Assembly (NCBI RefSeq): GCF_000421105.1
Contig: NZ_ATWF01000002.1
Coordinates: 62,001-126,000, forward strand
Source of the DNA: Limisalsivibrio acetivorans
Lineage (GTDB): Bacteria > Chrysiogenota > Deferribacteres > Deferribacterales > Geovibrionaceae
Length of the DNA: 64,000 bases
Reading direction: 5' to 3'
In this document: piece after piece, positions 14,142 through 57,073 of the stretch
Numbering within the stretch: position 1 is the first letter of the stretch
Layout of the letters: each line of letters opens with the position of its first letter
The notes under the pieces: generated by a model
The model's input: the letters and a program-made list of their open reading frames with translations, nothing else
What the model was told of the DNA's origin: nothing
The model's database searches: none
Program-made: the position numbers and the translations under genes

Positions 14142-14723
14142 CTATATACGGATAAGCTTGTCCGCTTTAAACATTTTGGTCATAACAGTATGAGCATCGG
14201 CGATCTTCCCCGCCCTCAGGTTGTCTGCAATGCCGAAATGCTCAAGGCATGTTCCACAGCAAAGCACCTCAACCCCCATATCCTCAAGCTCCTTGAGTAC
14301 TGCAACGGTATCCTCATCGGAAACAGCCATACGCACCGAGGTGTTCACAAGGATAAGAGTCTCGGGGATGCTGTCCATATTCTTAACGTTGCCGAGGAAG
14401 CCCTTCATAAGCTTGCGCCCCAGTGTCTCGTCCTCAGCGCCAAGACATTCCCCTGATATATGCAGAACGATGCTCTCAGAACTTTCGGTAAGGACCTCAT
14501 CGATGGAACACTCGTATCCCTTAACGATCTCAACCCTCCAGTTGTCCCCCTCCTGAACATTTTTGCAGGTGAAACCCTGGCTCTCTGCGAAGTTTTTAAC
14601 ATTAACCGAGGATGTAGAGTTATCCACAATAACGGTAACAACACCCTCCTCTATACTTTCCAATGCTTCCTTTGCCATAATCACAGGTTCAGGGCAAAGT
14701 TTTCCTCTGGCATCTACCTTCAT
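14142..14723 (-). CDS. yedF: YedF, sulfurtransferase-like selenium metabolism protein
   Basis: GGAGGAGAA precedes ATG 14723, giving 193 residues. The N-terminal TusA-like domain has the CPxP motif at C10-P-E-P13; the C-terminal DsrE/F-like domain carries CCGTCLEHFGI with several cysteines. This two-domain form (TIGR03527-type) is known to co-occur with selenium-using genomes and is thought to handle selenium or sulfur during selenophosphate supply. It supports the selenoprotein call at 52399-52752. No selD, selA or selB is in the window. Confidence 0.9.
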   Translation of the reverse strand: MKVDARGKLCPEPVIMAKEALESIEEGVVTVIVDNSTSSVNVKNFAESQGFTCKNVQEGDNWRVEIVKGYECSIDEVLTESSESIVLHISGECLGAEDETLGRKLMKGFLGNVKNMDSIPETLILVNTSVRMAVSDEDTVAVLKELEDMGVEVLCCGTCLEHFGIADNLRAGKIADAHTVMTKMFKADKLIRI

Positions 14724-14864
14724 TTCTCCTCCATAAATTGTCAAATATTTGCAAAATCACACTGATTACACAAACATTAACCGTATGTTCAATGTAAACG
14801 ATTGAAGCTGTCCGAATATAAGTGTAGAATTATATTGATTATTTAATAATATTTAAAGAGAGAC

Positions 14865-52398: not shown

Positions 52399-52752
52399 TC
52401 AGCCCGCTTCCTGCAGCCTCTCCTTAACCCTCTTAACGATCTCCGCAGGGTCTTTAACGCCCCAGCAGAGAGCTCTTTCATTGAGGGTTATATAAGGGAG
52501 TGGGAGCCTGTTCTCAACGATATTAGAAACATCGTTGATGAACTCCAGGACCTCCGGAGTGGATACATCCACATAGCCGAAATCCACATTGGCAGAGCCG
52601 AACTCCGCCGATAACAGGGCATCAAGCTTGTAACTCAAGTCCTCGTAGGGGTCATCGGATACCCCACAGCCTGTGGGGAAATACGAGGGGTTTCAGCCGG
52701 AGACAAACTCCATGCTTGTGCCGAAGAGCCTTACAATAAGTACGTTATCCAT
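52399..52752 (-). CDS. Predicted selenoprotein, YuzD-like thioredoxin fold (in-frame UGA = Sec20)
   Basis: Reading from ATG 52752 (GAGGA seven bases upstream, three bases after purF) the frame meets one TGA at 52695-52693 and then continues 97 codons without a stop. The product is 117 residues: beta1 VLIVRLFG, Sec20 in VSGU, C29 in PTGCG, helix, YVDVSTPEV, cis-Pro region LPLPYITLN and a C-terminal helix. The plan resembles YuzD (DUF1462), where this loop carries a CxxC. A hairpin directly behind the UGA fits a bacterial SECIS, and yedF in this window supports selenium use. Ordinary gene calls would give only a TTG-started fragment from 52638. A pseudogene with a stop is the alternative. Confidence 0.8.
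52641..52688 (-). promoter_or_regulatory. Putative bacterial SECIS element
   Basis: Behind the UGA: outer stem CCTCGTA (52688-52682) with TACGAGG (52647-52641), inner stem CCCCACA (52678-52672), loop GGC, TGTGGGG (52668-52662). The loop starts with G and lies 21 bases after the UGA, within the range usual for bacterial SECIS. Confidence 0.72.
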
Positions 52753-52755
52753 AAA

Positions 52756-54153
52756 TCATTCCTCAAACTTAGGGTTATCCCCGTCTCCGCTTCTGCTTAA
52801 GGTGGGGTAGTCACCGCTGAAGCACGCCTTGCAGAAGCTTCCGCCCCCTGCGCACTCCTCGAGGCAATCGAGGCTTATATAGCCCAGTGTGTCCGCTGTG
52901 ACAAACTTGCGGATCTCCTCAGTTGTATGACTCGAGGCCACGAGTTCCTTACGGGTGGGGGTATCTATACCGTAAAAGCAGGGGTATTTGGTAGGGGGTG
53001 AACATATACGGAAGTGCACCTCCAAAGCCCCAGCCTCACGGAGCATCTTAACTATCTTGCGGCTGGTAGTTCCCCTTACGATGGAATCATCCACCACAAC
53101 AATCCTCTTACCTTTTATTATATCCTTCACAGGGTTCAGTTTTATCTTAACCCCGAAATGCCGGATAGACTGGGAGGGCTCGATAAAGGTTCTTCCCACG
53201 TAATGGTTTCTTATAAGCCCCATTTCAAGGGGTATCCCGCTCTCCTCCGCATAGCCGAGGGTTGCCACAACTCCGGAATCGGGAACGGGAACAACGATAT
53301 CCGCATCTGCGGGCTGTTCCTTGGCGAGTCTTTTGCCCATCTCCTTGCGAACCTCGTAAACGTTGCGTCCGAAGAGATAGGAATCGGGTCTGGCGAAGTA
53401 TATATGTTCGAATATGCAGGGCATCGCTTTCTTCTTCTTGAAGGGGAAGCGTGACTCCATACCTGTTTCGTCTATGATAATCATCTCGCCCGGCTCGATC
53501 TCCCTTATGAACTCGGCACCGATAAGGTCGAGGGCAACGGTTTCGGATACAAGGATATATCCGTTAGCAAGCTTACCAAGGATAAGAGGGCGTATGCCGA
53601 GGGGGTCTCGAACGCCTATCATCTTCTCCTTGGTCATCATAAGGAGTGAATAGGCCCCTTTCAGCTTCTTGAGGGAATCTGTAAGCGACTCGACAAGCTC
53701 ATCCCTTCCGCTCTTTGCCACGAGGTGCACAAGTACTTCGGTGTCGGAGCTTGTGTTGAATATAGCACCGTTGCGGACAAGCTCGTTGCGTAGCTCATCG
53801 GCATTCACGATGTTTCCGTTGTGGGCAACGGCAACGGGACCTGCGTTTATCTCAACACAGAAGGGCTGAACGTTCCTGACGTGGCTCTCACCCGTGGTGG
53901 AATAGCGGTTGTGACCAATTGCAATATCCCCGGGCAGCTTATCTATAACGTCCGCACTGAATATATCCGCCACAAGACCGAGCCCCCTTTCGTAATGGAT
54001 CTGCTCCCTGTCGGAAACCGCGATGCCGGCTCCCTCCTGTCCCCTGTGCTGCAGGGAATATAACGAAAGATATACAAGGTTCGCAGCGTCCTTACTCCCG
54101 TATACACCGGCAACGCCGCATTCGTCGTGGAATTTATCCTGATCCAGAATCAT
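52756..54153 (-). CDS. purF: Amidophosphoribosyltransferase PurF
   Basis: First step of purine synthesis (PRPP and glutamine to phosphoribosylamine). Start at ATG 54153, four-base overlap with purL; 465 residues. A short propeptide precedes the catalytic C12 ([11 protein letters not shown]), as in the Bacillus type. The Fe-S cluster cysteines are present (CIFEH, CFYG, and [11 protein letters not shown] near the end). PRPP loop [12 protein letters not shown]. Member of purSQLF. Confidence 0.97.
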
Positions 54154-56375
54154 TCGCTCATCCATCTGCCGATGGTTTCGGCATGTATTTCACGAGCTTC
54201 GGCTGTCTCGGTTTTTACGACAGTCCTTCCGCTGTGCTTTATTACTATATGGTTTCCGCCGGTTTTGCCAATGGATTTTATGCTCAGGTTATGCTTCTGA
54301 GCAAGCCTTTCAAAGGCCTCGGTCTTCATCCCCGATACCTCGACAATGACACGTCCGTGGTTTTCGCCAAAAAGCAAATCAGCGGTTTCAAGGTCTTCCT
54401 CAAGGTCCACCCTGAACCCCCGAACCTCTTCGCCGAAGGCCATCTCGGCTAGAGCTACGGCTATTCCGCCGTCGGATACATCGTGGGCGGAGAGGGCAAG
54501 CTCATTCTCAGCGGCCTCCACCATGAAGTCTATGAGCTTCTTCTCATGCTCAAGGTCGACCTTTGGGGGCATCCCCTTCTCGACACCGTGGATAACGCTC
54601 AAATACTCGCTTCCGCCGATATCTCCCGTGTTTGTACCGAGGAGATAGATATGTGAATCATCGCTCTTGAATCTGCTCTGGAGCCTTTTTTCAAGGTCAT
54701 CTATCACACCGACCATAACGATGGTGGGTGTCGGGTAGACAGCCTGTCCCTCCGTCTCGTTGTAGAGGGATACATTCCCGCTCACTACGGGTGTCTCAAG
54801 GGTCCCGGCAGCCTCAGCCATACCCTCAACTGCGCCAACGAACTGCCACATTATATCGGGCTTTTCAGGGTTGCCGAAGTTGAGGCAGTTTGTGAGAGCC
54901 CTCGGTCTGGCACCGGATACGGCAACGTTCCTAGCTGATTCCGCCACGGCCGCCTTCCCCCCTTCGAAGGGGTCGAGCCTGCAGTAGCGGCTGTTGCAGT
55001 CGCTCGATATAGCGATGCCCTTTCCACTATCCTTCACACGGAGAACCGCAGCATCGCTCCCAGGGAGTACGGCTGTATTCACACGAACCATATGGTCATA
55101 CTGCTCCCAGACCCATTTTTTGCTGGCTATGTTGGGGCTTTCGAGGAGCTTGAGGAGTATCTTTTTGTTGGAGAGAGTGTTCTCCACCTTAACAGGGGCG
55201 TTCAGTTCATCCATATAATCGGGGCGGGCATAGGGTCTGTCGTATTTGGGGGCCTCGCTGGAAAGTGGTGCGGCGGGTATGCATGCCACTTCCTCACCCT
55301 GCCATGTGAGCCTTACGTTGCCGTCTGCGGCAACCCTTCCTATGACAGCCGCCTCAAGATCCCACTTATCGAAGATCTCACGAACCTTATCCTCGCACCC
55401 CTTGCGAACCACCATAAGCATGCGCTCCTGGGATTCGGAGAGCATTATCTCGTATGGGGTCATACCATCCTCACGGACGGGTACTTTATCTAGATCTAGG
55501 ACAACTCCGGACTGTGCGCCCATCTCAAAGGATGAGCTTGTTAGCCCTGCTGCGCCCATATCCTGAATGCCCACAACCCAGTCGTGCTTCATAAGCTCAA
55601 GGCACGCCTCAAGGAGAAGCTTCTCCTTAAAGGGATCGCCAATCTGGACGTTGGGGCGTTTTGATTCACTCTCGGAGCTGAACTCCTCACTCGCCATGGT
55701 GGCGCCATGGATGCCGTCCTTTCCGGTTCTCGCACCCACATATATTACCGGGTTCCCCTCACCTTCCGCCTTTGCGAGGAAAATCTTATCCTTCTTCACA
55801 ATGCCGAGGGAGAAGGCGTTCACAAGGGGGTTCCCCCTGTATGAGGGGTTAAAGAACACCTCACCGCCAACAGTAGGAACGCCGAAGCAGTTGCCGTAAT
55901 GGGAAATACCCGAAACGACCCCTTCGAATATGCTTCTGGTTTTATCGTTGTCTATGGTTCCGAAGCGCAAGGAGTTCATGGCGGCAACGGGTCTTGCGCC
56001 CATGGTGAAAACATCACGCATGATACCGCCTACGCCCGTGGCTGCACCCTGAAAGGGTTCAATATATGAGGGATGGTTGTGGCTCTCCACCTTGAAGCAG
56101 GCGCAGATATCGCCGTCCACTTCGATTATTCCGGCGTTCTCGCCGGGGCCCTGGACAACCCAGTCAGCCTTGGTGGGGAGCTTGGCAAGGTGCAGGCGGC
56201 TGCTTTTATAACTGCAGTGCTCACTCCACATGGCGGAGAATACGCCGAGCTCGATATAGTTCGGCTCTCTGCCGAGGATCTCCTTAGCCCTCAGAAATTC
56301 ATCGTCTTTCAGACCCATGCCCCGGGCCGCTTCCGCCGTTACAGGCGGGTATTTAAATGTATCGTACATGCTCAT
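54150..56375 (-). CDS. purL: Phosphoribosylformylglycinamidine synthase subunit PurL
   Basis: Small-type PurL (741 residues) that works with PurQ and PurS to make FGAM. ATP-binding and AIRS-type domains are seen ([43 protein letters not shown]). ATGA overlaps on both sides with purQ and purF. Confidence 0.98.
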
Positions 56376-57073
56376 AAAACACCGCTGAGAGTTTTCTTTA
56401 TGGATTCAAAGAGGTAGTAGCCGTGGTTCGTCTCCATGAAATCCTCCGCACACCTTTCCGGATGAGGCATCATTCCAAGGACGTTCCCACCCTTGTTCAT
56501 GATCCCCGCTATATTGTTCAGGCTTCCGTTGGGGTTCCCTTCTGCTGAGGCCTCTCCGTTGTCGTCGCAGTAGCGGAAAACTATGCGGTTATTCGCCTCA
56601 AGCTCATTGAGGGTGGCCTCATCGGCGTAGTAGTTGCCGTCCATATGGGCTATGGGAATGCTGACGATCTCCCCGTCCACGTATCTTGTGGTATATGGTG
56701 TGTCCGCATTGTCCACACGGAGATTAACGTACCTGCTTATGAACTTGAGGGAACGGTTGCGCATGAGCACGCCCGGCAGAAGGCCGGTTTCGGTGAGTAC
56801 CTGAAAACCGTTGCATATCCCGAGGACATGCCCCCCCTTGTCGGCGAATTCGGCAACACTCTCGATAATGGGGGAAAGCTTGGCTATGGCTCCACTGCGC
56901 AGATAGTCGCCGTAGGAGAATCCGCCGGGCAGGACAACAAGGTCTATACCGGAAAGGTCGGTGTCCTTATGCCAGAGAAAGGCGGTGTCCACATCCAAAA
57001 CGTGCTTGAGGATGTGGTAACAGTCATGGTCGCAGTTGGAACCGGGAAAAACAACAACTCCCGCTTTCATCAT
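56372..57073 (-). CDS. purQ: FGAM synthase glutaminase subunit PurQ
   Basis: Class I glutamine amidotransferase, 233 residues, supplying ammonia to PurL. Nucleophile Cys in [10 protein letters not shown]; His/Glu of the triad in [12 protein letters not shown] overlap with purS and purL. Confidence 0.97.

Follow-up and report, generated by a model that had tools for sequence, protein, structure and literature searches.

A predicted YuzD-like selenoprotein encoded directly behind purF in Deferribacterota

Directly behind purF, in the 64,000-nucleotide stretch of Limisalsivibrio acetivorans DNA analysed here (the window), an ATG opens a reading frame which meets a TGA at its codon 20 and then stays open for 97 codons. 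Is this TGA an ordinary stop, or is it decoded as selenocysteine (Sec)? The preliminary description of the locus, made from the letters alone, took the frame for a hidden selenoprotein gene. Standard gene calling returns only a TTG-started ORF of 79 amino acids after the TGA, and ordinary gene finders would cut the frame in half.

The frame and its operon

The features of the operon end are as follows.

52399–52752, minus strand: gene predicted to encode a YuzD-like protein of 117 residues with a thioredoxin fold and Sec at position 20 (U20; below, the Sec gene), with homologues bearing TGA at the equivalent codon in 19 of the 51 genomes of the phylum
52693–52695, minus strand: putative Sec codon TGA (codon 20), shared by all main-family homologues, its flanking conserved codons varying synonymously
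52761–52764, minus strand: Shine-Dalgarno-like GAGG within the 3' end of purF, recognized by consensus only
52756–54165, minus strand: purF, amidophosphoribosyltransferase, directly upstream of the Sec gene (purQ-purL-purF-Sec gene order, 14 loci of relatives)
54150–56375, minus strand: purL (same gene order)
56372–57073, minus strand: purQ (same gene order)

The start codon (52752–52750, minus strand) is separated by three bases from the purF stop, which ends at 52756, and GAGG (52764–52761) lies eight bases before it; the frame closes with a TGA at 52401–52399. The coordinates thus agree with the location given in the preliminary description, as well as with its ribosome site, its single TGA at codon 20 and the 97 open codons that follow; the strand, which it did not state, is the minus strand. 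Translated with U20, the product is MDNVLIVRLFGTSMEFVSGUNPSYFPTGCGVSDDPYEDLSYKLDALLSAEFGSANVDFGYVDVSTPEVLEFINDVSNIVENRLPLPYITLNERALCWGVKDPAEIVKRVKERLQEAG and carries the motif SGUNPSYFPTGCG.

Conservation and decoding of the UGA codon

The search for homologues, covering 60 genomes (the organism's own and those of relatives), yielded 20 genes in 19 genomes, each with an internal TGA. In the alignment, all 20 TGAs fall on codon 20, where TAA, TAG or a Cys codon never occurs; the expectation of "Cys or UGA" at this codon was fulfilled by UGA in all the homologues and by Cys in none. Residues invariant in the family include F10, G11, S18, G19, U20, P22, S23, G28, C29, G30, D34, P35 and Y36, and nearly all variation in the conserved codons flanking the TGA is synonymous. 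After the TGA, invariant Pro22 is spelled by four codons, Ser23 by three, Pro35 by four and Tyr36 by two, and the mean pS amounts to 0.66 vs. a mean pN of 0.23. Since the invariant residues vary silently, the region just after the TGA is inferred to be translated in the frame of the Sec gene. Hence, the selenoprotein-gene criterion of a conserved in-frame UGA with coding conservation on both flanks is met.

Were the TGA a real stop, the locus would consist of a 19-residue leader or remnant and an unrelated or separately started ORF, or else represent a pseudogene. The TTG-started ORF returned by standard gene calling is in line with this possibility. However, the identical TGA is retained in homologues across families, with the protein conserved on both its sides; codons 22–30, which precede every possible start, are conserved at the protein level, and their changes are silent; and the excess of pS over pN lies downstream of the TGA. 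Furthermore, two homologues (L019 and L032) possess no ATG, GTG or TTG between the TGA and the final stop; therefore, the downstream half is not a separate gene. In these two homologues, a product starting only after the TGA, which the preliminary description had named among the findings that would refute it, is excluded. A genuine stop at codon 20 is thus scarcely credible.

Selenocysteine insertion at UGA20 would require a recoding signal, for which a hairpin following the codon is the candidate:

52662–52678, minus strand: bacterial SECIS-like hairpin CCCCACAGGCTGTGGGG with a 7-bp stem and a GGC loop (52671–52669), supported by covariation, folding energy and the bSECIS criteria
52666–52668, minus strand: codon of the invariant Cys29, the proposed resolving residue, inside the hairpin

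Published criteria for bSECIS elements comprise a loop of 3–9 nt, an upper stem of 4–16 bp, a G at loop position 1 or 2, a spacing of 16–37 nt and a minimum free energy of at most −7.5 kcal/mol (PMC13188914). All of them are satisfied (loop of 3 nt, 7 bp, G first, 21 nt, −11.1 kcal/mol). Across the family, a 7-bp stem capped by GGC or GGU recurs at the equivalent offset, its loop beginning 21 nt downstream of the TGA. In 18 sequences, the outermost stem pair (18–34) is unbroken throughout (CG in 8, UA in 7, UG in 2, GU in 1), while the pair 22–30 is GC in 8, AU in 4 and broken in 6, all six with the Ser codon TCA; two outer stem pairs are lost in L026. The covariation score of the stem, 0.285, compares with 0.163 in shuffles and was reached by none of the 500; slid controls gave 0.06–0.16. 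The two-tier architecture initially described was retained only in part: its upper stem, loop and spacing hold, but no conservation of the lower helix was found in the family. Taken alone, the hairpin is weak evidence, because 5 of the 2,241 TGA triplets in the window are followed at that offset by an equally good hairpin whose loop has a G among its first two bases. It is the comparative evidence, and not the hairpin alone, by which the predicted Sec gene is made real.

The host genome encodes the machinery for Sec decoding. It harbors selB (274.9 bits; cut-off, 242), selA adjoining selB (above its cut-off, E 6e-165), selD (above its cut-off, E 1e-98, and carrying an in-frame TGA of its own) and a tRNA-Sec gene, selC, with the anticodon tca (63.6 bits; found by the Rfam model and by ARAGORN). 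All four genes for which a search had been proposed are therefore present, and the selenoprotein-gene criterion of a host encoding SelA, SelB, SelD and tRNA-Sec is met. The selenium-metabolism gene noted earlier at about 14.1 kb of the window was confirmed as well:

14142–14744, minus strand: yedF, selenium-metabolism protein (TIGR03527, 193.9 bits, E = 2.4e-57, above the NCBIfam cut-off)

Across the phylum Deferribacterota, the Sec gene was found in 19 of 51 genomes and selB in 20 of them. Both occur together in 17 genomes, the gene alone in 2, selB alone in 3 and neither in 29 (Fisher p = 1.1e-8). The two gene-bearing genomes without a selB match are drafts (G026, 92% complete, and G030, 87% complete), so that the missing selB is most simply explained by assembly gaps.

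This co-occurrence bears on another possibility, i.e., that the TGA is read as a different residue (Trp, or by near-cognate suppression) and the hairpin merely stimulates readthrough. Such readthrough would likewise keep the frame open, but it is very unlikely in view of the tracking of selB by the gene, the complete set of selA, selB, selC and selD, the fit of the hairpin to the bSECIS model and the position of residue 20, which adjoins the redox motif position of the thioredoxin fold. Moreover, TGA serves as an ordinary stop elsewhere here, e.g., in purF and at the 3' end of the Sec gene itself. Selenocysteine decoding of UGA20 is strongly supported on comparative grounds, in the absence of expression, 75Se or peptide data. 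Accomplished by SelB and tRNA-Sec, it would be directed by the hairpin whose loop begins 21 nt downstream.

Fold and predicted redox chemistry

The AlphaFold2 model, built from nine aligned sequences, has a mean pLDDT of 74 and displays a thioredoxin-like topology (strand–helix–strand–helix–strand–strand–helix). The Sec loop (residues 16–32, holding U20 and C29) has a pLDDT below 50, so the geometry of the active site is not given by the model. The structure 1xg8 (SA0798 of Staphylococcus aureus, a YuzD/DUF1462 protein) was the top match by both Foldseek (E 4.6e-4) and VIA-align, with Z 10.7 over 104 residues and an rmsd of 3.8, followed by ordinary thioredoxins with Z of about 9–10. The family sequence profile also ranked 1xg8 first (E = 0.006). 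DUF1462 (PF07315), an accepted family of the thioredoxin clan (PMC3091736), was matched by 16 of 18 members at E up to 1, with a best value of 1.3e-5. The organism's own protein scored 15 bits against PF07315, whose curated cut-off is 25; one relative attained 25.7 bits in the genome scan and the others remained below. A thioredoxin fold nearest to YuzD/DUF1462, as suspected from the start, is thus supported by a model of moderate confidence together with sequence profiles. A match to DUF3502, given by one member only (E 0.016–0.029), was rejected as chance-level.

Differences from YuzD were noted as well. The Sec protein shares about 27% identity with the 1xg8 fragment used, the letters of which were obtained via a Bacillus YuzD-like query, the query itself not being evidence. 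While 1xg8 has ICASC, the Sec family has FVSGU at the equivalent site and hence no CxxC. In the MAFFT alignment, U20 falls on the second Cys of CASC; this correspondence is approximate, since hhalign against the 1xg8 fragment spanned residues 40–99 only. Another difference is an insertion, PSYFPxGCGxxDDP, which in the Sec family bears the distant invariant Cys29.

Based on these features, a redox cycle can be proposed. Sec20, placed ahead of the first long helix, would be the likely nucleophile, attacking a sulfur or selenium species in oxidised form, such as a disulfide. Cys29, whose invariance accords with its earlier suggested role as the redox partner of U20, would resolve the intermediate to a Sec20–Cys29 selenenylsulfide, to be reopened by a cellular thiol system acting as reductant. 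Such a selenol–thiol oxidoreductase is regarded as probable, although the cycle is inferred and its substrate is unknown.

A divergent relative is encoded elsewhere in the same genome, outside the window (C2:132625-132975, minus strand; loci L037 and L063). About 30% identical, it carries an in-frame TGA aligned to U20 in the motif CTSGUMP and a hairpin at the equivalent offset but no Cys29, and constitutes a second candidate selenoprotein. Another genome of the same family (G009 C5:152571-152867; L067 1489-1809) contains a relative of this paralogue with TGA in the equivalent column and the motif CEAGUMP.

Distribution, novelty and possible roles

Named records with the Sec gene include Seleniivibrio, Denitrovibrio and Calditerrivibrio. 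The gene is absent from the rest of the 385-genome sample, about 334 genomes of which lie outside the phylum, and no relatives of it were found in the plasmid and viral collections. When 84,980 species genomes were scanned with the organism's own protein as a single sequence, nothing matched, because the short peptide patterns used were overly specific; a profile scan of the same genomes succeeded where the single-sequence scan had not. So far as found, the family appears to be restricted to Deferribacterota.

The order purQ-purL-purF-Sec gene was encountered in all 14 of the larger loci of gene-bearing genomes. One draft, G011, features two similar loci of this kind (C7:5744-6088 and C16:29583-29927), which may reflect a strain mixture in the assembly and not a duplication. 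Two genomes of the taxonomic order, G015 and G016, possess selB without a Sec gene behind purF, so presumably they use Sec in other proteins. No Cys-replaced or degenerate copy was detected behind purF by a six-frame profile search with stops masked in ten gene-lacking relatives, i.e., three Geovibrio-like genomes, three other Sec-negative ones from f6, G048, G014 and the selB-bearing G015 and G016.

Its fixed site behind purF hints that the gene is co-expressed with those for purine synthesis. Another possibility is that the protein acts as a dedicated PurF partner, protecting, e.g., the catalytic Cys or a probable Fe–S cluster of PurF. Apart from the position of the gene directly behind purF in every locus inspected, this function would suit the PurF encoded here, in which a propeptide-like segment precedes DECG and the C-terminus is rich in Cys, features resembling the Fe–S type of Bacillus subtilis PurF. 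However, three close, Geovibrio-like relatives without selB (inferred to be probably Geovibrio) keep a PurF 80% identical, with nothing like the Sec gene behind it, so the Sec protein is not needed for PurF function, and synteny may mean co-expression only. A dedicated partnership is accordingly viewed as unlikely, without affecting the assignment as a selenoprotein. A role in the redox upkeep of PurF or in a step of sulfur or selenium handling is perhaps conceivable, but remains a guess.

The family does not seem to have been described. Among the 119 families of prokaryotic selenoproteins compiled in a 2026 review, neither DUF1462/YuzD nor a matching Sec motif occurs (Table 1 of the review); NCBIfam release 20.0 contains no model for the family. 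With subscription papers excluded, no report of YuzD/DUF1462 as a selenoprotein was found, in agreement with the preliminary description, nor any paper on Deferribacteres selenoproteins naming this gene. Known thioredoxin-fold selenoproteins (Trx, Grx, SELENOW-like, thioredoxin-like Sec.1/Sec.2 and Uxx-star) are likewise small, with a single Sec located in what is presumed to be a redox loop. Still, their models gave no meaningful E-value for the Sec family (best, Uxx-star, 0.13), and its motif SGUxPSYFPxGCG (U-x8-C) differs from the UxxC, CxxU, CxU and UxC of the review table. Judged from sequence, with the same experimental data lacking, it is nearly certain that the gene encodes a true selenoprotein of a new family. 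None of the three conditions named at the outset as refuting it (no selB/selC in the genome, homologues lacking Cys or Sec at codon 20, a product starting only after the TGA) is met.

Differing in this respect too from the known thioredoxin-fold selenoproteins, the Sec family has no Cys orthologue that could be found: none occurs in the 51 phylum genomes or the 385 sampled ones, and a Cys-spelled motif pattern run on the 84,980 species genomes retrieved only 8 loci, all Sec-coding. The presence of Cys-containing homologues, a usual supporting criterion and not a definition, is thus not met, though the distant YuzD has CASC. According to a 2025 paper, all known selenoproteins by now seem to have Cys-containing homologues, and the method of that paper may filter out families lacking them (PMC12013277). 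Glycine reductase selenoprotein A, long thought to have none (PMC12013277), resembles the Sec family in this supposed lack; it is unrelated, and Cys homologues have since been reported for it. An obligately selenium-dependent branch of YuzD-like proteins, Sec-only and lost whole together with Sec decoding, is considered somewhat more likely than not.

These results suggest that a conserved Sec gene may be systematically truncated by annotation in the phylum. They would lengthen the list of selenoprotein families by one that occurs in several taxonomic families of a single phylum; those who compile this list depend for the most part on Cys homologues to recognize new members. Since the gene is small, its operon position fixed and its relatives present in cultured genera, labelling and deletion tests are practical. 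Lacking a Cys orthologue, the family may serve as a direct test case of why some proteins must use selenium.
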